DNA of 37,984 nucleotides from IMG/VR virus record IMGVR_UViG_3300040960_000278, positions 1 through 37,984 of that record; one strand, written 5' to 3'. The stretch comes from a virus. Made by a program: the position numbers and the translations under genes. Below, piece by piece: positions 1,865 through 37,984 of this stretch (positions are counted from its first letter, which is position 1; every line of letters begins with the position of its first letter). Under the pieces are notes generated by a model that worked only from the letters and a program-made list of their open reading frames with translations, had not been told where the DNA came from and made no database searches.

Positions 1865-2198
1865 AATGCTCTCCATTGTTTCCATTCTGGCCTATGATAT
1901 CCATACGATCTTCATCAAAGTCAAAGCCTTTCTCATTCCAGTGAGCAGGACGGTTGTCTTTCATTTCCTGTGGTGCGAAGTCATCTAGCTCAAGTAACTT
2001 AGCGAAGATCTCTTCTTGCTTTAGAGTACGTGCCTCAAGTATTTGAGCTAGTCCAATCCAAGCATTCATTGTCTTATCTACTGACCATTTGTTTTCGTAT
2101 GCCATCTCAGCAATCAGCTCTATGTCGTCTTGCGTCATAGCCACTCGCATCATGGCATCTTCTAAGTCAAACCTATCAACGCCCCATTTATTTTTCAC
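1857..2198 (-). CDS. Hypothetical protein, about 113 aa, probable GTG start
   Basis: I place the start at the GTG at 2198, which has a purine-rich GAGAGAAG stretch upstream and gives only an 11-bp overlap with the metallophosphoesterase gene. In-frame ATGs upstream (up to 2264) would need a long overlap and would add a hydrophobic leader that looks like a frame shadow. The protein begins VKNKWGVDRFDLEDAMM and includes DDIELIAEMAYENKW and a Glu/Asp-rich C-terminus. It looks helical and acidic. No family is recognised; it sits between the phosphoesterase and the DUF3310 gene. Confidence 0.6.
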   Translation of the reverse strand: MKNKWGVDRFDLEDAMMRVAMTQDDIELIAEMAYENKWSVDKTMNAWIGLAQILEARTLKQEEIFAKLLELDDFAPQEMKDNRPAHWNEKGFDFDEDRMDIIGQNGNNGEHYV

Positions 2199-2955
2199 TG
2201 TACTTCTCTCGCAGATAATTAATACTAACAGGTAACTCATCAAAGCTACCATCATTAACTTCATTCAGCATCCACAGTCCAGACCATGACCCGTTAGTTT
2301 GTGGGTTAAGATAATCTTCATCGTGTTGGTAGTAGATACCTGCGAACAAACCAGTAAGATTCTTACCATCAGCTCTGCGGCCATAAGCAATGTCACGATC
2401 TTGTACGTGACCCATGACACAGCTCATCATCTTCTTAGATAGAAGTAGCTTCGCACTACTGACAGGTCTACCCATAACACCTGATACAAAGTAATGGCTA
2501 TAACATACGCCATCGATAACAGCAGGTTCAAGAAAGTCATACACTTCCCATCCAAGTTTGTTTAAGCGTAGGTCATCATAGCTAATCAATCCCTCTAGCT
2601 TTGCATCGTTCTCTACTGCACGCTCGATACGTTGCTCATGGTTACCAATCAAGAAGATCATGCGAGGATTCCATTGCTTCTTCTTGTTAAGACGCAAGCG
2701 ATCCTGCTCTTCACGTATTGGTGTTAGCAGATCAAACATACCATCAAGACCTGCATCGATGTCATGCTTGTAGCGTCTGCCTTCAAATGATTTCTTGCCT
2801 ACATCGTACATAGATAACGATGGCATATCCCAGTGATCACCTAAGTGTACGATCACATCTGGTTTCTTTTCTGCTGCATACTGACCTGCCCATCGTAGGT
2901 GATCAGTCTTGCCGTTAGGTTTACATTGTGTATCTGGTATTACTAAGTGTTTCAT
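2188..2955 (-). CDS. Calcineurin-like metallophosphoesterase
   Basis: A 255-aa protein with the full two-metal phosphoesterase signature: D8 in VIPDTQ, GDHWD (G39-D43), GNHE (G104-E107), H154 in CYSHYF and GHVQ (G182-Q185). Such enzymes cleave phosphomono- or diesters; the substrate here is unknown, with nucleotides or nucleic-acid ends as candidates. The ATG at 2955 overlaps the stop of the endonuclease I gene (ATGA), and AGGAAGAA precedes it. Similar phosphoesterases are common in the replication region of podo- and siphoviruses. Function is sure at the fold level only. Confidence 0.88.
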   Translation of the reverse strand: MKHLVIPDTQCKPNGKTDHLRWAGQYAAEKKPDVIVHLGDHWDMPSLSMYDVGKKSFEGRRYKHDIDAGLDGMFDLLTPIREEQDRLRLNKKKQWNPRMIFLIGNHEQRIERAVENDAKLEGLISYDDLRLNKLGWEVYDFLEPAVIDGVCYSHYFVSGVMGRPVSSAKLLLSKKMMSCVMGHVQDRDIAYGRRADGKNLTGLFAGIYYQHDEDYLNPQTNGSWSGLWMLNEVNDGSFDELPVSINYLREKYSEK

Positions 2956-3359
2956 TTCTTCCTGCTCCACATTGGAGGTACTGTGTCGGGTGAGTAGTAC
3001 TCAAAGTTGTTCTTCTTCGCCCACTCTGCCATTGTGAATCTACTACCATCAGCACGCTTACGTGCGAATGGCATAGCAGTGTTAGGGTTCTGAAAGATAA
3101 AGACTAACGTTTCATTCTTACCGAGTGAGTTACGTACGTCTACATACTTGCGTGCTTCATCCCTTGTTCTGAATCTACCTTTCACTTCAATGAATGTAGT
3201 GAATCCATACTCTTCAAATACAAAATCAGGTTCATACCTACGTACCTGAGTGTACTCGATCTTGTCAGGGTGATAGTTACAACGTTTAAGTTGCTTGGCT
3301 AAGTCGTACTCTAGCCATGAATCATATCCCTTCGGTACGTTTTTCTTGCTTCGCTTCAT
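2952..3359 (-). CDS. T7 endonuclease I-like Holliday junction resolvase
   Basis: A 135-aa protein aligning by eye with T7 gp3: SWLEYDLAKQL (catalytic E17), RYEPDFVF (D45), and FIEVKGRF (E58, K60), matching the E20, D55, E65 and K67 set of T7, followed by the family's R/K-rich segment. It cleaves branched DNA during genome concatemer resolution and, in T7, host DNA breakdown. I chose the start MKRSKKNVPKG; upstream in-frame codons belong to the overlap with the exonuclease gene (38 bp). Confidence 0.9.
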   Translation of the reverse strand: MKRSKKNVPKGYDSWLEYDLAKQLKRCNYHPDKIEYTQVRRYEPDFVFEEYGFTTFIEVKGRFRTRDEARKYVDVRNSLGKNETLVFIFQNPNTAMPFARKRADGSRFTMAEWAKKNNFEYYSPDTVPPMWSRKK

Positions 3360-4044
3360 CCTGTGCGGCCTCTTCTGTTTCTGGTGGCATCCATAACTCA
3401 CCTTTGATCCTACGTAAATAGAGTAGCCTCCCATTTTCTAATGCTCTGTCTTCGCCTAGATGTTCAACACATACTTCCCACATCTCACGTGGTGTCTTAT
3501 CACCAAGTAGCTTAGCTGCCTTAACACAACCGATACCTTTAACACCAATGATGTTATCGATACGATCACCCATTAAGAATTGCATATAGAAATTAAGATC
3601 ACCTTCATCCTGTTCAATGTAATACAACCGCTTCTTAGCAAAGTTGTAGTGCCATCCAACAACCTGATCGAAGTCTTTATCTAGTGAAACGATGATGGCT
3701 TCATCGCCTAGCTCAGTCGCTCGGATAGCGATGGTATCATCTGCTTCCTCGCCATCTGAAACGTCAGCATCCCATTCCTTAATTAGGTACTCACGTAATG
3801 CTGCATGGTGTACAGGCTTGCGGTTATCTTTTCTGTTACCTTTGTAAGGTTCAGTGACTGCGATATCATTGCGGAAGTTTGTCGTCCCTGACAAGAACAC
3901 TTCACACTCTTCTACTTCATCTAGCTCCACCATAATGTCAGCGATAAAACTATACATAGTAGAAGTTGCTACCTCCTCGGACTCCTTATCGCAAGCGAAT
4001 CCGATTCGGTAGCATAGCATATCACCGTCAATCAGGGCGATCAC
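3322..4044 (-). CDS. 5'-3' exonuclease (FEN/T7 gp6-type)
   Basis: A 240-aa protein of the flap-endonuclease/5' nuclease superfamily. Visible motifs are DGD (D6, D8), YKGNR (67-71), GEEADDT (E100, D102, D103), SLDKDFD (D122, D124), GDRIDNI (D160, D163) and the helix-hairpin-helix VKGIG (168-172). It removes RNA primers and resects DNA during replication and recombination. The start codon is GTG (4044-4042), overlapping the SSB stop (GTGA), with GAGG just upstream. The charged C-terminal tail overlaps the endonuclease I gene. Confidence 0.92.
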   Translation of the reverse strand: MIALIDGDMLCYRIGFACDKESEEVATSTMYSFIADIMVELDEVEECEVFLSGTTNFRNDIAVTEPYKGNRKDNRKPVHHAALREYLIKEWDADVSDGEEADDTIAIRATELGDEAIIVSLDKDFDQVVGWHYNFAKKRLYYIEQDEGDLNFYMQFLMGDRIDNIIGVKGIGCVKAAKLLGDKTPREMWEVCVEHLGEDRALENGRLLYLRRIKGELWMPPETEEAAQDEAKQEKRTEGI

Positions 4045-4448
4045 AAGACCTCGATATCAGCATCGTCACCGATTTCCTCAACAGCATCAGCGTGATACTC
4101 TTTAAGGTCAGTGACTACTAGCTTAGCGATACCTGCGCTTACACCCTTAGCACCTGTCGGAGCTTTCCAAGCGTAAGGTTTGATCAGTACGTCAGCCTTA
4201 GATTCGTTAGCAACCTTGGCCATGATCTCATTACCATCCTTATCGTATGGTGTGATTGGATACTTAGACTTTGAAGTAAAGAAGTAACCACGATCGTCAT
4301 CCTTGGTACGTACCTTCACACCTTCTTCCTCAAGGCGTGCTACTTGTGCATCAGTCAGGTTACATACATCTACCTGATACTTACCTGATAGTTGATTTGT
4401 CTCTTTCAGGCAAGACCAGTAGAGATCAACGTTGGTGAGCTTAAACAT
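4041..4448 (-). CDS. Single-stranded DNA-binding protein (T7 gp2.5-like)
   Basis: A 135-aa protein; the segment ADVLIKPYAWKAP followed by a KLVVTDLKEY strand resembles the conserved core of T7-like gp2.5 proteins (KLKVKYSLVPYKWN). The C-terminus is acidic (EEIGDDADIEVL), the usual protein-interaction tail of SSBs that contacts polymerase and helicase. It sits just before the exonuclease, as expected in a replication cassette. It is shorter than T7 gp2.5 (232 aa), so the assignment rests on the core and the tail. Confidence 0.8.
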   Translation of the reverse strand: MFKLTNVDLYWSCLKETNQLSGKYQVDVCNLTDAQVARLEEEGVKVRTKDDDRGYFFTSKSKYPITPYDKDGNEIMAKVANESKADVLIKPYAWKAPTGAKGVSAGIAKLVVTDLKEYHADAVEEIGDDADIEVL

Positions 4449-4718: not shown

Positions 4719-4747
4719 ATTATATCATAAGATTTAGTGTGTGTCTA
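4719..4747 (-). promoter_or_regulatory. Sigma70-type promoter PE2 for the secreted protein/SSB segment
   Basis: Read on the minus strand: TAGACA (4747-4742), a 17-bp spacer, TATAAT (4724-4719), and a TGA extended -10 directly before it. The -35 lies in the last codons of the polymerase gene. The expected start site precedes the ribosome site of the exported-protein gene by about 20 bases. Confidence 0.75.
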
Positions 4748-6377
4748 GCCATGTCTTGCCGATCTTTGCCTCAGACTCAGCAGGGATGCGAAAGCCTAAG
4801 ACATTACCTGCCTTGATACTAGCCTTGGTCATGATGTTTGCTACTACGTCACCATAGTGAGCAGGTACTTCCATCTGAATCTCATCATGTACAAAAGCCA
4901 CTTGCTTAACAGGGACATTAGCTCGGCGCAACATACGATGTGCTTCGACACACCATTGCTTTGCGATGATAGCACCGCATGATTGTAGCAAGCTGTTGAG
5001 TGCTGCGTGCTCTGATCGGATGCGTACCTTGCGACCATCCAATGCAGGGACGTAACCCTTCGATGCGATCCTCTGCACCTTTAACAGCAGTTGCTGTAGC
5101 TTGGGTGTGTTACCCATGAACTTATCAATTAACTCTTGTCCTTTCTTTGCGTTACCTCCTGCGATTGCGCCTATCTTTGCAGCACCTGCACCATAGAGCA
5201 GGGCGTAGATAAATGTCTTAGCCTGTGCTCTGGTCTCAAGACCTGCTGCGTGTTGATTAGCAGTATGAATGTCACCATCGAGTAACTCTTTGGTGTAGTT
5301 ATCATCCTGCATATAGTGAGCTAAACAGCGTAGCTCAATACCACTAAGGTCAGTACCTACTAGTACGTTACCTTCGTCTACTGTCCAACAGCTACGGCAC
5401 TCCTTACCGTATGGACTATTAACACTAGGTACTTGACCAAGGTTAGGGTTCTGGTGCGTCATACGTCCTGTCACAGCACCATTACTGATCACCCTACCAT
5501 GTACCCTACCGTCATCATCAGCACGTTCTAGCCATGAATCCACTAGGCCGACACGTTTCTGTAGCATCAGGTATTCGTTGATTAGCTTAGCCTCTGGTAG
5601 ATCAATACCATCAAGTACCTTCTCATTCACGATGATAGATCCTTTCTCAGTACGCTCAGTGAACTTAACACCTAGAGTTTCAAGACGCTTAGCAATCTGT
5701 TGTCGTGATCCTACGTTAAACTCTTCAACGTGATCCTTCAAACGTTTACCTGTCTTCTCACTCCATCGCTCAGTAACGATAGGTGGAAAGGTAACCTGCA
5801 TCTGCATCTCGATATCTACCATGCGGTTGCGTAGCTCAGCGAGTAGCTTACTTGCCTTCGGTACGTCTAGCTTGAAACCAGTACGTTCCTGACGTGCCAT
5901 GTGCATAGCTACCTCATGCTCTAGTGCTAGTGATTGTTGCCAACCTTCACCCATCTCATGCACAAGATGTTTGTGCAAGCGTTCGAGTACCTCAACGTCA
6001 CGTGTACAGTAGTCAAGCATCTCTACTGTTAGGCCGCCATCAAAGTCTTCAACATCAAAGTCCATCTTGTCAAAGCCTAAGCGTTTGCCCCATGCCTTGA
6101 GACTGTGACCACCTTCTACGTTAGGATCGTACAAGCGTGACATGATCAACGTATCGTGTGCGTGTGGTAGTTTGATACCAATACCTAACACTTCACGTAG
6201 TACCTTAGCATCGAAGCCAATCAGGTTATGAGCACAGACTTGTTCGTTCTCAAGGTACTTAGCTAACAGCTTGTACTCTTCAGGCGTAGTCCATGTTTGA
6301 ATAACCTCACCTTTCTTAGTGACGACACACCAGATCTTATCGTGTGCTAGATTAGTTTCAATGTCTAAGTAAATCAT
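4734..6377 (-). CDS. DNA polymerase, family A (T7 gp5-like, no thioredoxin-binding insert)
   Basis: A 547-aa replicative polymerase. The N-terminal 3'-5' exonuclease has D5 and E7 (DIET), D56 (IGFD) and D127 (YCTRDVEV). The polymerase domain has motif A TDLSGIELR (D343), motif B RAQAKTFIYALLYG (R383, K387, Y391) and motif C VHDEIQ (H497-E499). Tyr at 391 equals T7 Y526 / E. coli F762, the state usually seen in virulent phages. T7 gp5 has 704 residues; here the thumb region between TGK (209-211) and SRQQIAKRL (224-232) is very short, so the roughly 75-residue thioredoxin-binding loop of T7 is lost. ATGA junction with the upstream gene. Confidence 0.96.
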   Translation of the reverse strand: MIYLDIETNLAHDKIWCVVTKKGEVIQTWTTPEEYKLLAKYLENEQVCAHNLIGFDAKVLREVLGIGIKLPHAHDTLIMSRLYDPNVEGGHSLKAWGKRLGFDKMDFDVEDFDGGLTVEMLDYCTRDVEVLERLHKHLVHEMGEGWQQSLALEHEVAMHMARQERTGFKLDVPKASKLLAELRNRMVDIEMQMQVTFPPIVTERWSEKTGKRLKDHVEEFNVGSRQQIAKRLETLGVKFTERTEKGSIIVNEKVLDGIDLPEAKLINEYLMLQKRVGLVDSWLERADDDGRVHGRVISNGAVTGRMTHQNPNLGQVPSVNSPYGKECRSCWTVDEGNVLVGTDLSGIELRCLAHYMQDDNYTKELLDGDIHTANQHAAGLETRAQAKTFIYALLYGAGAAKIGAIAGGNAKKGQELIDKFMGNTPKLQQLLLKVQRIASKGYVPALDGRKVRIRSEHAALNSLLQSCGAIIAKQWCVEAHRMLRRANVPVKQVAFVHDEIQMEVPAHYGDVVANIMTKASIKAGNVLGFRIPAESEAKIGKTWLDTH

Positions 6378-6658
6378 ACGTGATTGTCTGTTTGAATAAT
6401 CCTAAAGAATGTATCATGTTCTGGAAATTCTTTCATGAACTTCCTAGCATAGAAAGCTACATGACTATTAGATATCTTGTAGTTATCATCTGATTTAGTT
6501 TCTACCTGACTATACCATCTGATACGTTCAATGATAGCTTGTGCTCCATAACTTTTTACACCTGCCTTAATAGCTTGGAAGGTATAGTCTTTGAACAGAT
6601 CCCAAATATGTGGGTTGTCACTATCAAACTTATCAAACTTTTCTTTTAACTTATTCAT
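6374..6658 (-). CDS. Conserved hypothetical protein, 94 aa
   Basis: Contains KFDSDNPHIWDLF (about 9-21), AIIERIRWYSQVET (about 41-54) and HVAFYARKFMKEFP (about 66-79). I recognise this pattern from a small conserved protein of phages and prophages whose role is not established. It is coupled by ATGA both to the primase-helicase gene and to the polymerase gene, so it is made with the replisome. A replication accessory role is only suggested by position. Confidence 0.75.
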   Translation of the reverse strand: MNKLKEKFDKFDSDNPHIWDLFKDYTFQAIKAGVKSYGAQAIIERIRWYSQVETKSDDNYKISNSHVAFYARKFMKEFPEHDTFFRIIQTDNHV

Positions 6659-8247
6659 AACTCATCCTCATCTCTACGTTCTGTCATTCTACCTGTGTCT
6701 AAGTGATACAGCAATGACGTTGCTTTACCTGTGATACCACAGAATCGATTCTTAAGTACTCGCACGTGTGTGGTGTTACGCTCTAGCGGATCATCGTGTT
6801 GGCCATTTCGTTCGAGACCAATAACCATGTCACTAAGCTGAGCAATACTGCCACTGCCACGTAGCTGAGCCAAAGAAGTTGCAGCTCCTTCTTCATGTCC
6901 TTTACCCTCCGGTCTTTTCAAGTGTGATACTACAGTCAACGATACGCCTGTCTCTTGTACTAGCATACGTAGCTTAGTCATAATCTCATCAAGTGCTTTT
7001 CGCTCATCGCCGGATGCTTGGGCTGACACAACGATGGAGACGTGATCCAAGAATATGTATTGACATCCAAGTCCTTTAGCCATATAGCGTACACGATTGA
7101 TAATGTTGTCAACGCTAGTGCTACCAAAGTGATCAAAGAGATACAAACGTCCAGTACCAAGCGTAGCGTTAAACGCCTCGATCTTTTCTTCATCTGTTGC
7201 CTCACAGTCAGGTAAGTGTAATGGTTTATTAGCGGCCAGTGACATAACACTTAAGCCTGTCTTACGTGTACCTTCCTCAAGGAATAACAAACCAATGTTA
7301 TCTTCTGTCTTATGCAGTACGTGGTACACAATCTCACGTAGGAATTGAGACTTACCTAAACCTGATCCTGCCGTCACTGTCACTAGCTCACCCTTACGTA
7401 TGCCGTAGGTTAGCTTGTTCAATGCAGGGAATGGATAGTCACAGTCACTAGCCTTGATAGGTTTCATCACCTCTTCAAGTAGCGTGTCGCCTGAGATGAT
7501 ACCATCAGGTACGTACTGATCAGCACTCCACCATCGATCATTAAACTCTTTGTTCTCATGGTGTGCTAGGTAATCACACGCATCCTTACGATCGGTAGCG
7601 TGCTTGAATATCTTAGCCTTACTACCGAACAGCTCAGCCAATTGATTAGCTGCACGTTGTCCTACCTCATCACCATCCATACAGATCACGATGTTCTCAA
7701 AGGTAGTCAGCCATTCATACTGTGCCTTTGCATCCTTCAATGCAGACTGAGCACCGTTGCGTACTGATACGACAGGGTACTTAGATCCCATCATCTGGTA
7801 CGCTGCCATCGCATCAAACTCACCTTCGGTTATGGTGACAAACTTACCACCGCCTGAGAATAGATGTTGGCCATACAGTTGTGCATCTTTCCAGTTACCT
7901 TGCGTGCGAAATTGTTTATCTTCGCCGCGTGTCTTAGCTGCAATGATGTTGCCTTTGCTATCAGTGTATCCATAAGCGTAGGTCTCACCATCCTTAATGC
8001 AATTGTATTTCTCGCACGTCTCGCGTGAGATACCACGCTCAAGGATAGTGCGGTGTCCTGTTGTGAAGTCATACGTTAACTTCGATTCTTGTTTAGGTTG
8101 AGGTTGCATATAATTATCTCTTGCGTTATCGCCCTTGGTATGTGTCTGACAAGAGAAACAATACGTACTATTGTCTTCGTTGATTGTCAGTGCATCACTG
8201 CTGCCACAGTCAGGACATGGTTGGTGTGTTTTCTTATAACTCTGCAT
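6655..8247 (-). CDS. Bifunctional DNA primase-helicase (T7 gp4-like)
   Basis: A 530-aa protein with all T7 gp4 modules. The zinc-binding domain has C11, C14, C30 and C33 (CPDCG, CFSC). The TOPRIM primase has ITEGEFDA (E141) and CMDGDEVG (D191, D193). The RecA-like helicase has Walker A AGSGLGKS (293-300), Walker B IFLDH (D401), SHLKRP (H442), the LRGSGSIAQLSD loop (462-473) and the arginine-finger motif LKNRFCG (R501). The acidic C-terminus (RRDEDEL) would contact polymerase. It unwinds DNA and makes RNA primers at the fork. It overlaps the next gene by ATGA and the upstream gene by 14 bp. Confidence 0.96.
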   Translation of the reverse strand: MQSYKKTHQPCPDCGSSDALTINEDNSTYCFSCQTHTKGDNARDNYMQPQPKQESKLTYDFTTGHRTILERGISRETCEKYNCIKDGETYAYGYTDSKGNIIAAKTRGEDKQFRTQGNWKDAQLYGQHLFSGGGKFVTITEGEFDAMAAYQMMGSKYPVVSVRNGAQSALKDAKAQYEWLTTFENIVICMDGDEVGQRAANQLAELFGSKAKIFKHATDRKDACDYLAHHENKEFNDRWWSADQYVPDGIISGDTLLEEVMKPIKASDCDYPFPALNKLTYGIRKGELVTVTAGSGLGKSQFLREIVYHVLHKTEDNIGLLFLEEGTRKTGLSVMSLAANKPLHLPDCEATDEEKIEAFNATLGTGRLYLFDHFGSTSVDNIINRVRYMAKGLGCQYIFLDHVSIVVSAQASGDERKALDEIMTKLRMLVQETGVSLTVVSHLKRPEGKGHEEGAATSLAQLRGSGSIAQLSDMVIGLERNGQHDDPLERNTTHVRVLKNRFCGITGKATSLLYHLDTGRMTERRDEDEL

Positions 8248-8512
8248 CGTTCAAGTCCATGTTCAAACGAATCCAACGTGCAGCTTTAGTGTTACGTAGA
8301 TCCCTGTTCTGTTCTTCACCCATGTACTCAACACATCGCTGAGCTAACATTGATTGAGCAGGGTTATCAATGTAACTCTGCAGTTGCTTAAGGAATTTAA
8401 CAATACCATAAGAATCTACATACTTGGCCGCATCAACATACACGTTGTGCATATGTAACTCTTCCATCATAGCTCTGTATTCGTTGTAATCTCTTTCAAT
8501 ATCTTCAGTCAT
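8234..8512 (-). CDS. Hypothetical protein, 92 aa
   Basis: The first gene after promoter PE1. It begins MTEDIERDYNEYRAMMEELH and ends RLNMDLNDAEL. It is acidic and probably helical, with no recognised domain. It overlaps the primase-helicase start by 14 bp and is therefore co-translated with it. The ATG is preceded by AGAGAAGATAACT. Confidence 0.7.
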   Translation of the reverse strand: MTEDIERDYNEYRAMMEELHMHNVYVDAAKYVDSYGIVKFLKQLQSYIDNPAQSMLAQRCVEYMGEEQNRDLRNTKAARWIRLNMDLNDAEL

Positions 8513-8574
8513 AGTTATCTTCTCTTTAGTACTTAGTTATTACTTAGTAATAATAATATTAAGTTGTTCTTAAG

Positions 8575-8590
8575 TAACTCTATAGAGTTA
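8575..8590. promoter_or_regulatory. Perfect 16-bp palindrome over the PE1 start site (probable operator)
   Basis: TAACTCTATAGAGTTA is its own reverse complement. It begins at the last base of the PE1 -10 box and spans the expected transcription start, the classic place for a repressor site. A 7-bp inverted repeat (TTATTAC-TTA-GTAATAA, 8537-8553) lies in the leader below it. Ten of its bases (AACTCTATAG) recur just before the small terminase start at about 13266. Confidence 0.7.
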
Positions 8591-8618
8591 TTGTAGCACA
8601 TTTAATTCTCAAAGTCAA
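8590..8618 (-). promoter_or_regulatory. Sigma70-type promoter PE1 for the replication genes
   Basis: Minus strand: TTGACT (8618-8613), 17-bp spacer, TACAAT (8595-8590), with a TG at the extended -10 position (TGCTACAAT). Both boxes deviate by one base from consensus. It lies partly in the 3' end of the zinc-ribbon gene and drives the 92-aa gene, primase-helicase and polymerase. Its -10 context TGCTAYAATA is shared with the three late promoters. Confidence 0.85.
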
Positions 8619-8814
8619 CGTACCACTGATCATCATCAGCTACTTCATCCATGTTAGCTAGATCTTCGTTGTCTGCTAGGTCATAGTTATCTATGGTTGG
8701 TGTCTTAGTGTAGCTCAAGCATTTGTTACAGGTATCAAGATACTCACCTGTATCAGCGTGCTTTCGCGTTGCTTCAAAGTCACTCAGTAACACATCACAT
8801 ATAACACATCTCAT
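8602..8814 (-). CDS. Small zinc-ribbon protein, 70 aa
   Basis: Starts MRCVICDVLL with a CxxC pair (C3, C6) and a second CxxC (C29, C32, in TCNKC), spaced as a treble-clef/zinc-ribbon knuckle, then an acidic C-terminal half (NEDLANMDEVADDDQW). The start at 8814 forms an ATGA overlap with the upstream membrane microprotein. Zinc binding is inferred from the four cysteines; a transcription or replication accessory role is a guess. Confidence 0.72.
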   Translation of the reverse strand: MRCVICDVLLSDFEATRKHADTGEYLDTCNKCLSYTKTPTIDNYDLADNEDLANMDEVADDDQWYVDFEN

Positions 8815-9504: not shown

Positions 9505-9729
9505 TCAATCCTTATTCATGCTGTGCCAGTACTCATCCGGCAATGGTTCGTGTACGGATAGCTCTGGAATACCCTCTGAGACGCTCTGTGCTGCGCTCTG
9601 AGGCACGATCTCTGTCACTACCCAGTTAGGGTACATCATAGCCTTCGCCATGCCCTCTAAGAAGCTCCTATCGGGTGACTGTAAAGCCGCTTTATTTGTA
9701 CGGGTATCTACTAAGTAATAAGTTTTCAT
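9505..9729 (-). CDS. Hypothetical protein, 74 aa
   Basis: Begins MKTYYLVDTRTNKAALQSPD and ends LPDEYWHSMNKD. ATGA junction with the upstream HTH gene. The first half reads like a small alpha/beta fold, the second half is acidic and Ser/Pro-rich. No recognised family. Confidence 0.55.
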   Translation of the reverse strand: MKTYYLVDTRTNKAALQSPDRSFLEGMAKAMMYPNWVVTEIVPQSAAQSVSEGIPELSVHEPLPDEYWHSMNKD

Positions 9730-9908
9730 GCTGCTGTGTTCCTTCTGTGTTTAGCTAGTACTTTTTTAATCGTGGTTGTACCTACGTCAAACTTCTTGGC
9801 TAATGATGCTATGCTCAGTTGTTTGACTTGCTCATACAATTCGTTACGCTCTTCGTTTAATAGGATGATCATCTGAATATCAAATGGTGTTAGCTTTGGC
9901 TCACTCAT
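9726..9908 (-). CDS. Small helix-turn-helix DNA-binding protein, 60 aa
   Basis: Residues about 32-53 (SIASLAKKFDVGTTTIKKVL) form a helix-turn-helix of the resolvase/Hin or sigma-like type, preceded by a helical segment (LNEERNELYEQVKQL) and followed by a basic end (AKHRRNTAA). It is the only clear HTH protein I see in the leftward arm, so it is the first candidate to bind the dyad repeats in the control region or the palindrome at 8575-8590. That link is inference. ATGA junctions on both sides. Confidence 0.75.
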   Translation of the reverse strand: MSEPKLTPFDIQMIILLNEERNELYEQVKQLSIASLAKKFDVGTTTIKKVLAKHRRNTAA

Positions 9909-12295: not shown

Positions 12296-12325
12296 CTCTA
12301 ATGGTTCGGATCCGAGACCTGTAAC

Positions 12326-12346
12326 AGTATATAAGCAAATACTAAT
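12326..12346 (+). repeat. 21-bp dyad repeat, copy 1
   Basis: Matches the consensus core ATATWAGCANNTNCTAAT. It is isolated from the other eight copies and lies to the left of the DnaA boxes, so the two sets flank the candidate origin. Confidence 0.8.
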
Positions 12347-12412
12347 ATACTATGTCTTGTATATAATGAGTACGCGTAGCAATTATCATGCCAACGTGTT
12401 CTGGCCAGCGTT

Positions 12413-12465
12413 TCATCCACAGGTTACTAACAGGGTTATCCACAGAATTGGCATAGTTATCCACA
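12413..12465 (+). promoter_or_regulatory. Three phased DnaA boxes
   Basis: Two perfect boxes TTATCCACA at 12436-12444 and 12457-12465 and one near match TCATCCACA at 12413-12421, all in the same orientation. Start-to-start distances are 23 and 21 bp, close to two helical turns. Host DnaA binding here is the direct reading. Confidence 0.8.
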
Positions 12466-12473
12466 TAGCTAGG

Positions 12474-12564
12474 AGGCTCTGTAAGGCTCTCTAAGGCATT
12501 TTTGGATTTTAGATACCCTGCTATCAAGTACCCCTAAAACGGCATAGAGGCTCTCAGAGGCTCT
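12474..12564 (+). repeat. Helically phased AGGCTCT repeats
   Basis: AGGCTCT occurs at 12474, 12484, 12548 and 12558: two pairs each spaced exactly 10 bp. A shortened AGGC at 12494 continues the first 10-bp series. All lie on one face of the helix next to the DnaA boxes, suggesting a protein-binding array. Confidence 0.7.
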
Positions 12565-12604
12565 CACAGGTATAGAGAACAAATAGAGAACTTAGGCCGA
12601 TTGC

Positions 12605-12633
12605 TTGACATTCTGGCCAGAGTATGCTATGGG
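12605..12633 (+). promoter_or_regulatory. Degenerate copy of the late promoter with a palindrome in its spacer
   Basis: TTGACA (12605-12610), a 17-bp spacer ending AGTATGC exactly as in the three late promoters, then TATGGG where TATAAT is expected. The spacer contains TCTGGCCAGA. Either a dead promoter or one that needs an activator bound to the nearby repeats. Confidence 0.4.
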
Positions 12634-12684
12634 TCATATCAGTATATTAGCAAGTACTAATGTATGGGATTCTGGCCAGAGTAT
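12610..12684 (+). repeat. Repeated TCTGGCCAGA palindrome
   Basis: The 16-bp segment ATTCTGGCCAGAGTAT occurs at 12610 and 12669, and a 9/10 copy of the palindrome at 12400-12408. TCTGGCCAGA is a perfect 10-bp palindrome. Copies alternate with the dyad repeats. Confidence 0.7.
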
Positions 12685-12911
12685 TAGCATATTAGCAAGT
12701 ACTAATGCGACTAGGATATAAGTATATTAGCAAGTACTGATGGAGATCTGTATAAGTATATTAGGATATGCTAAATAGCTACTACACCGACACACACATT
12801 AGTACTTCAGAATATAAGCACATACTAATACAGTACTTTAGAATATAAGCAGATTCTAATGCGCCTCCTCCATTAGCATATTAGCATATAACAATATAAG
12901 CAGATTCTAAT
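12641..12911 (+). repeat. Array of eight 21-bp dyad repeats (iterons/operators)
   Basis: Copies start at 12641, 12686, 12721, 12755, 12809, 12840, 12875 (degenerate) and 12891. Consensus AG then NATATWAGCANNTNCTAAT, built around the dyad TTAG-N6-CTAA. An inverted half copy is at 12796-12810. Spacing is irregular (31-54 bp, two copies overlap), unlike a CRISPR. The half-site CAAGTACTAA recurs inverted as TTAGTACTTG across the -35 of late promoter PL1, so one protein could bind both the array and that promoter. Confidence 0.85.
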
Positions 12912-13154: not shown

Positions 13155-13183
13155 TTGACTTTCTCTAAAAAGTATGCTATAAT
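13155..13183 (+). promoter_or_regulatory. Late promoter PL1
   Basis: TTGACT (13155-13160), 17-bp spacer ending AGTATGC, TATAAT (13178-13183), extended -10 TGC. The sequence AGTAT-GCTATA-ATATACT makes a dyad over the -10. It drives the packaging, lysozyme and portal genes. Shares spacing and 12 or more bases around the -10 with PL2 and PL3. Confidence 0.88.
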
Positions 13184-13276
13184 ATACTGAATAGAAACGT
13201 TAACAAACGTAGAATTATAATCTTAGTGTTATTTTTAATGTTAATCACTAAGTACCTAAAGAGAAAACTCTATAGT

Positions 13277-13669
13277 ATGGAAGAGCCTCAGACAACAAAG
13301 AAACGCGGAAGACCTAAGAAGGCTGATGTGTTATCAAAAACAAAAGGTAACAGAGTAGCACGTGGTCGTCCTAAAGGCGATGCAGCCATCATTAACGAAT
13401 ATAAAGCAAGGATGTTAGCATCTCCAAAGAGTGCTAAAGTTCTTGAGAAGATCTTTGATGCAGCGTTAGATGATGAACATAAACACCAAGCTGCTGCATG
13501 GAAAATAATTACTGATCGTGTTATCCCTACAGCAACCTTCGAGAAGGATGTTGTTAAAGGCGCAGGACGTAATGCTATACAGATTAACATCAGTGGCATC
13601 GGCGGTAGTGTGGATGTTTCTCCTACTGATGACGATGATATTATTGAGGCAGAGTACACTGATGAGTGA
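13277..13669 (+). CDS. Putative small terminase subunit with AT-hook-like motifs
   Basis: A 130-aa protein starting MEEPQTTKKRGRPKKADV. Two GRP motifs (RGRPKK at about 10-15 and RGRPKG at about 30-35) resemble AT-hooks that bind the minor groove. The middle is helical (INEYKARMLASPKSAKVLEK, then DEHKHQAAAWKIITDR) and the end is acidic (DDDDIIEAEYTDE). It is the first late gene, two genes before the large terminase, and proteins of this shape are usually annotated as terminase small subunit. The start is uncertain: no good ribosome site precedes the ATG at 13277, and in-frame starts exist at 13226 and 13238. Confidence 0.65.
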   Translation: MEEPQTTKKRGRPKKADVLSKTKGNRVARGRPKGDAAIINEYKARMLASPKSAKVLEKIFDAALDDEHKHQAAAWKIITDRVIPTATFEKDVVKGAGRNAIQINISGIGGSVDVSPTDDDDIIEAEYTDE

Positions 13670-37453: not shown

Positions 37454-37984
37454 GACACGCTAAGCATTCGTCAGCATCCTTCAATGCTACACGTGCTACC
37501 TTATCACCGACTTGATCGGCTGTGATACCTGCGTTAGTACGTAGATAATACAATCCTTTCAGTCCACCTTTGAAAGCGCGTAAGTGTACAGCATTGACGT
37601 ATGACTTGTCACTACCTGAAGGGAAGAACAAGTTAACACTCTGCCCTTGGCATACATACGGTTGACGATCTGCTGCGTGGTCTACTACCCAACGCTGATC
37701 AATCTCAAACGCTGTCTTGAATACATCCTTCTCCCACTCATCTAAGAATTCAAGGTGCTGTACGCTACCCTGATTAGCGATAATTGTTTTCCACACTGCA
37801 TCGTTGTTACGTCCCTTCTCTTCTAACACTTTCTCAAGGTATTTATTCTTGATGAGATGCGCTCCTGCACGTGTACGATGGGTAAAAGCATTAGACTTAA
37901 CAGGCTCAATGGAAGCAGTACAGCCACAAATAATACTGCTATTGGCATTTGGAGCAATGGCAATGAGATGAGCGTTACGCATTC
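37446..37984 (-). CDS. nrdA: Ribonucleotide reductase class I, large subunit, C-terminal part (continues from 1-1337)
   Basis: Continues the nrdA frame across the seam; the last 127 bases repeat the window start. Visible are APNANSSIICGC (about 414-425), the CQGQSVNLFF segment, the radical-transfer tyrosine pair in GLYYLRTN (Y549, Y550; E. coli Y730/Y731) and the C-terminal redox pair ECLACHG (C577, C580), which takes electrons from thioredoxin or glutaredoxin. The pair is CxxC, shorter than the CxxxxC of E. coli. With the N-terminal part the protein is 582 aa. Confidence 0.96.
   Translation of the reverse strand, partial: MRNAHLIAIAPNANSSIICGCTASIEPVKSNAFTHRTRAGAHLIKNKYLEKVLEEKGRNNDAVWKTIIANQGSVQHLEFLDEWEKDVFKTAFEIDQRWVVDHAADRQPYVCQGQSVNLFFPSGSDKSYVNAVHLRAFKGGLKGLYYLRTNAGITADQVGDKVARVALKDADECLACHG
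37858..37984. repeat. Right copy of the 127-bp end overlap
   Basis: Identical to 1-127. Removing one copy closes a 37,857-bp circle and restores nrdA. Confidence 0.95.

Follow-up and report, generated by a model that had tools for sequence, protein, structure and literature searches.

Phage operators, known and proposed, at host-type promoters

In phage lambda the control regions OR and OL carry dyad operators of approximately 17 bp that overlap promoters of the host RNA polymerase, with three sites per control region served by the proteins CI and Cro. In the telomere phage PY54, Cro acts on a single 16-bp palindromic operator, OR3, located next to strong phage promoters (PMC4488713). Phages related to PY54 differ in the peripheral bases of this operator (PMC4488713).

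Here we describe a perfect 16-bp palindrome that coincides with the predicted start site of a sigma-70-type promoter at the head of a phage replication operon. From the letters of this genome and its relatives, we lean, albeit with considerable reserve, towards a putative DNA operator over the start site as the best explanation of the palindrome.

The genome and its replication operon

The window, i.e. the whole stretch of 37,984 nucleotides that was analyzed (IMG/VR record IMGVR_UViG_3300040960_000278), contains the complete genome of a phage, which is circularly permuted and maps as a circle of roughly 37,857 bp, since its ends share a 127-bp direct terminal repeat (1-127 and 37858-37984) and the ribonucleotide reductase gene (nrdA) reads uninterrupted across the end junction. 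The leftward block holds the replication genes, the rightward block those for terminase, portal, capsid and tail. The operon of interest, on the minus strand, begins with a gene for a 92-aa protein of no family (8234-8512), of which a scan found no relatives, and continues with the genes for a primase-helicase (phrog_239; 6655-8247), a DNA polymerase (phrog_17; 4734-6377) and the remaining replication proteins, namely a gp2.5-like ssDNA-binding protein, an exonuclease, an endonuclease and a metallophosphoesterase (2188-4448).

Among the genes examined there were none for lysogeny. A single-subunit RNA polymerase was not detected with PF00940 in the genome, control genomes likewise giving no match, and a PHROGs scan of the replication and main structural genes revealed no RNA polymerase either. 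The podophage group appears to rely on the RNA polymerase of its host. A search of genome contigs for this host yielded one distant match, in a MAG, which does not point to a host.

The non-coding stretch 12314-12911 between the divergent gene blocks is a possible replication origin. It contains degenerate 30-35-nt repeats resembling TATATTAGCAAGTACTAATG and, at 12436-12465, two TTATCCACA DnaA-box words 21 bp apart; a looser DnaA pattern was not enriched genome-wide.

The promoter and the palindrome over its start site

The promoter sits at the stop codon of the gene for a 70-aa CxxC...CxxC protein (8605-8814, minus strand), a conserved upstream neighbor in relatives; the next gene starts at 8512. 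Direct reading of the sequence bore out the original prediction of TTGACT-N17-TACAAT at 8618-8590 (minus strand) together with a perfect 16-bp palindrome. The −35 box TTGACT (8613-8618) is still within the coding sequence for the CxxC protein, in its final codons, and is separated from the −10 box TACAAT (8590-8595) by a 17-nt spacer ending in TGC, which makes the −10 box an extended one (TGC-TACAAT). With both hexamers present and a spacer in the range of 16-18 nt, the predicted promoter is of the sigma-70 type; it scores 10/12, with TG. Promoters of the TTGACT-17-TG box class are also located at 13155, 17782 and 28232, and the overall number of sigma-70-like matches is at the level of shuffles (45 versus 47.3). 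The promoter, called early in the original prediction, is internal to the leftward cluster and could equally be of the middle class.

The palindrome TAACTCTATAGAGTTA occupies 8575-8590. It had been described as following the −10 box at once; the two are indeed adjacent but actually share one base, the last T of the box being the first T of the palindrome. The center of symmetry falls between 8583 and 8582, 7 nt past the −10 box and at the predicted +1 (approximately 8583). Operators of dimeric repressors of the Cro/CI type have two-fold symmetry over some 14-18 bp and overlap a promoter or start site, as the 16-bp palindrome does with the predicted +1. The leader of the operon (8513-8574, minus strand), which contains ACTAAGTACTAAAGAGAA as ribosome-binding region, resembles the late leader discussed below; its RNA fold is not significant (z −0.42).

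We propose that the sigma-70-type promoter would drive the leftward operon from the 92-aa protein gene via the genes for primase-helicase, DNA polymerase and ssDNA-binding protein to those for the nucleases, and that a dimeric DNA-binding protein, encoded by phage or host, would occupy the palindrome over +1. The bound protein would block open complex formation by the host RNA polymerase, so that in one phase of the infection the replication operon would be expressed less, or later. The proposal starts from what is observed: promoter-like boxes, a dyad, the registration of the two, their position at the head of the operon and the enrichment of dyads in relatives. Use of the promoter, a +1 near 8583, protein binding, repression and timing are what we infer. 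The palindrome is most likely a repressor-binding site, and sites of this sort are ordinary phage switches.

Position of the palindrome and its possible formation by chance

TAACTCTATAGAGTTA is the only perfect palindrome of at least 16 bp in the genome, and this 16-mer occurs in it once. In dinucleotide shuffles 0.65 perfect 16-bp palindromes are expected per genome of this composition and 48% of the shuffles have at least one, versus only 15 of 20,000 shuffles with such a palindrome in the 34 nt that span −10..+28 here. The palindrome is therefore unusual by its position rather than by its existence, and the earlier statement that it is unlikely by chance is right for the former and wrong for the latter. 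A chance palindrome at an ordinary promoter would also agree with the finding that its letters are not retained in the nearest relatives (see below). Its position argues against chance, as does the dyad enrichment across the phage group, which persists when the studied genome is left out (p 0.001-0.009), so that we regard this explanation as improbable. The exact 16-mer was found in 27 contigs of IMG/VR, in unrelated contexts; a convincing sigma-70 promoter was in register with it in none of them.

The palindrome could also function as RNA, UAACUCUAUAGAGUUA in read-through transcripts from upstream forming a small hairpin as a target of processing or binding. UAACUCUAUAGAGUUA folds as a 6-bp stem with a UAUA loop, and the late ribosome-binding site, too, has the word CTCTATAG within a possible hairpin. 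However, the fold is at the level of shuffles (z −0.93), transcripts from this promoter would begin within the palindrome and lack its 5′ arm, a T run for a terminator is missing, and there is no Rfam match. An RNA element is thus the least credible of the explanations, and we give it very little weight.

The homologous promoter in related phages

Relatives, designated here by L numbers, were gathered with the primase, the DNA polymerase and the CxxC protein as queries. Many of them also have a strong promoter where the CxxC protein gene ends, at its stop codon; in some, including L002-L004 and MEP401/402, there is no promoter at this place. A close relative covering 8575 was not found: the contigs of L109-L111 (83-91% identity in DNA polymerase) and of L311/L312 (93-95% in small terminase) stop short of this position. 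The nearest relatives that cover the region read TATAATAATTCTATAGAGTTT (L115) and TATAATAATTCTATAAAGTTCTATAGAAT (L001), the counterparts of the palindrome being AATTCTATAGAGTTT and AATTCTATAAAGTTC. In both the dyad pairs are broken and not restored by compensatory changes, which counts against an operator, as does the fact that the genome has a single putative site.

Other lineages have perfect dyads of other sequence at the replication promoter: ATACTATATAGTAT, overlapping the −10 box, in the L130 group (L130, L132, L136-138), CTCTTAAGTACTTAAGAG in L142 and ATGAGTACTCAT in L058. Different perfect dyads in different lineages are what one expects of an operator that changes in step with its repressor. 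The spacing between dyad and −10 box also differs among lineages, which fits a protein-binding site better than a fixed element of the promoter.

For 23 distinct promoters, selected by promoter score rather than symmetry except for two with a TACCCT −10 box added and five excluded by hand, the perfect half-arms sum to 104 versus 71.5 ± 5.1 in shuffles and the best dyads to 141 versus 125.4 ± 3.4; neither sum was reached in any of 1000 shuffles. With one promoter per lineage (17, from a lineage list drawn by eye), the perfect arms sum to 76 versus 54 ± 4.6 (0 of 2000 shuffles) and the best dyads to 104 versus 93.9 ± 3.0 (p 0.0005); omission of the studied genome from this set gave p values of 0.001 and 0.009, respectively. 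In a stricter promoter set (n = 13) the enrichment was modest (z 2.4-2.5). Dyads were not enriched in the downstream control region +22..+56, nor were start-site dyads at other strong promoters (n = 63) or at late promoters (n = 35) of these phages. An operator is favored over chance because start-site dyads typify the homologous promoter across the wider phage group. As to conservation of the palindrome in relatives, its letters differ and its symmetry is not exactly kept even in the nearest phages, whereas start-site dyads as such are enriched across lineages.

Part of the word could, instead, belong to the promoter. According to this explanation the strong promoters of these phages include AACTnTATAG right behind the −10 box, as a discriminator or as part of the first transcribed bases, where it might act as a −10-like pause element, and the perfect palindrome of this genome is its accidental extension. 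In many relatives the −10 box of the small-terminase late promoter is succeeded by TATAATAACTATATAG, which is not a full dyad; one group of relatives has this reading at its late promoters. Likewise, late promoters of relatives have AACTATATAG immediately behind their −10 box but lack full symmetry, which we count against the operator and which suggests that part of the word may be a promoter feature. The motif ACTAYRTAG (at most one mismatch), picked by eye from the very promoters counted, occurs in 24 of 111 distinct promoters at −5..+12 relative to the −10 box, versus 7, 7, 2 and 2 in control windows. Against a promoter element speak the replication promoters of L142, L058 and L259, whose dyads are unrelated to the word, the start of the motif, which varies from −3 to beyond +10 relative to the −10 box, and the specificity of dyad enrichment for the replication promoter. 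We consider this explanation unlikely, although it is the most serious competitor of the operator.

The late leader

The late promoter TTGACT-17-TATAAT (13155-13183, plus strand) precedes the small terminase gene. It had been noticed that part of the palindrome recurs before this first late gene, which hinted at an early-late switch. AACTCTATAG does recur at 13266-13275, exact over 10 nt, and is kept in two close relatives; the switch in its proposed form is not supported, since the late −10 box (13178-13183) is 82 bp upstream of the copy, which is located between the ribosome-binding site and the ATG. A shared early-late operator was rejected for this reason and because the late start region reads ATACTGAATAG, which is not the palindrome; TTAGTACTT as a shared early-late element was discarded too, since it is no commoner than by chance (22 versus 16.8).

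At 13258-13276 (plus strand), just before the ATG at 13277, the leader reads AAAGAG-AAAA-CTCTATAG, i.e. a ribosome-binding site and the complementary CTCTATAG. Pairing of AGAG with CTCT would leave AAAA as the loop, so that the late AACTCTATAG probably belongs to a putative ribosome-binding-site hairpin rather than to a second operator. The 8-mer core CTCTATAG is not enriched in the genome (3 versus 1.7 by chance). The late-leader element is nevertheless real, since L311 and L312 (93-95% in small terminase) match AAAGAGAAAACTCTATAGTATG at 22 of 22 positions while much of the remaining leader differs. In L311, L312 and L315-L319 the element at 13258-13279 is kept, sometimes with the hairpin arms swapped in order, and in more distant relatives its place is taken by CTCTATAGAGG or CTCTATAGTAGAGG.

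In some genomes both promoters have similar words; in L119 these are TACTATATAGGAA at the replication and TACTATGTAGGAAA at the late promoter. The group may have an element common to its replication and late promoters; such a common word is absent from the late promoters of the studied genome (13155, 17782 and 28232). These three rightward promoters (plus strand) also share spacer sequence resembling TTTYTYTAAAAAGTATGC, which is likewise found in late promoters of relatives. In late leaders of relatives the stretch from about +30 to +50 shows dyad enrichment (z 5.5-6.7), and here the palindrome CTTAAGTATACTTAAG recurs in L325, L334, L337, L339, L340, L344 and L348. L197, L215, L216, L217, L227 and L254 have promoters with GATCAGTTGTGATC, a short inverted repeat, just past the predicted start.

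Candidate regulators and the CxxC protein

The original prediction named as repressor a 60-aa putative HTH protein (9726-9908, minus strand). Its matches are weak, that to HTH_7 having E 0.003 and missing the curated cut-off and that to a phage late activator E 0.004, and no homologue was found in approximately 270 related loci (best E 0.18), which speaks against this candidate. Of the predicted repression of the replication operon there remain the host-type promoter with its start-site dyad and the enrichment of such dyads in relatives; the repressor candidate finds no support. By eye, candidate small HTH-like proteins are encoded upstream in L125-127, L005/6/202, L119, L142, L051 and L007. 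Some of them seeded a profile, with which the non-seed members scored within the decoys.

The CxxC protein, with the signature CDxxLSDFEATRK, is encoded near the primase gene in at least 581 phage contig stretches. No other family is shared by nearly all loci compared; many of these were, however, chosen through the CxxC protein, and its gene is also present at loci without the promoter. It has no match in Pfam and a weak one to an unnamed PHROG (E 0.0007), and its model gave no significant fold match in the PDB.

Comparison with known systems

Related primase-helicases are present in the Zobellviridae-like podophages SIO1 and P12053L, which are more distant. The Methylophilales phages MEP401/402, which are Zobellviridae-like podophages too, resemble the studied phage in that the CxxC gene lies just before that for primase; in contrast, the two genes overlap in these phages, leaving no room for an intergenic promoter or palindrome. 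It is conceivable, although we think it rather doubtful, that this large group of lytic podophages, for which an RNA polymerase gene is not known, regulates the replication operon by start-site operators with fast sequence turnover, each paired with an exchangeable small regulator encoded immediately upstream. If so, repressor/operator pairs of the early region would diversify as in the immunity of temperate phages, but in lytic ones. The operator, if real, would be a concrete site for the timing of replication in widespread, experimentally neglected podophages, and the pattern of different dyads at the same place makes the protein that sets this timing testable.

With lambda the locus shares an operator-like dyad site overlapping a host-type promoter; it differs in its single site, where lambda has three per control region with CI and Cro to bind them. 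With PY54 it has in common one 16-bp palindromic site per genome, here a putative operator, by a promoter. PY54 is temperate and its Cro is known, whereas here the search for a repressor gave no established candidate and the palindrome coincides in part with a promoter for replication genes. By analogy, and with no claim to membership of the same family, the Cro operator of PY54 would be the closest studied counterpart in action.
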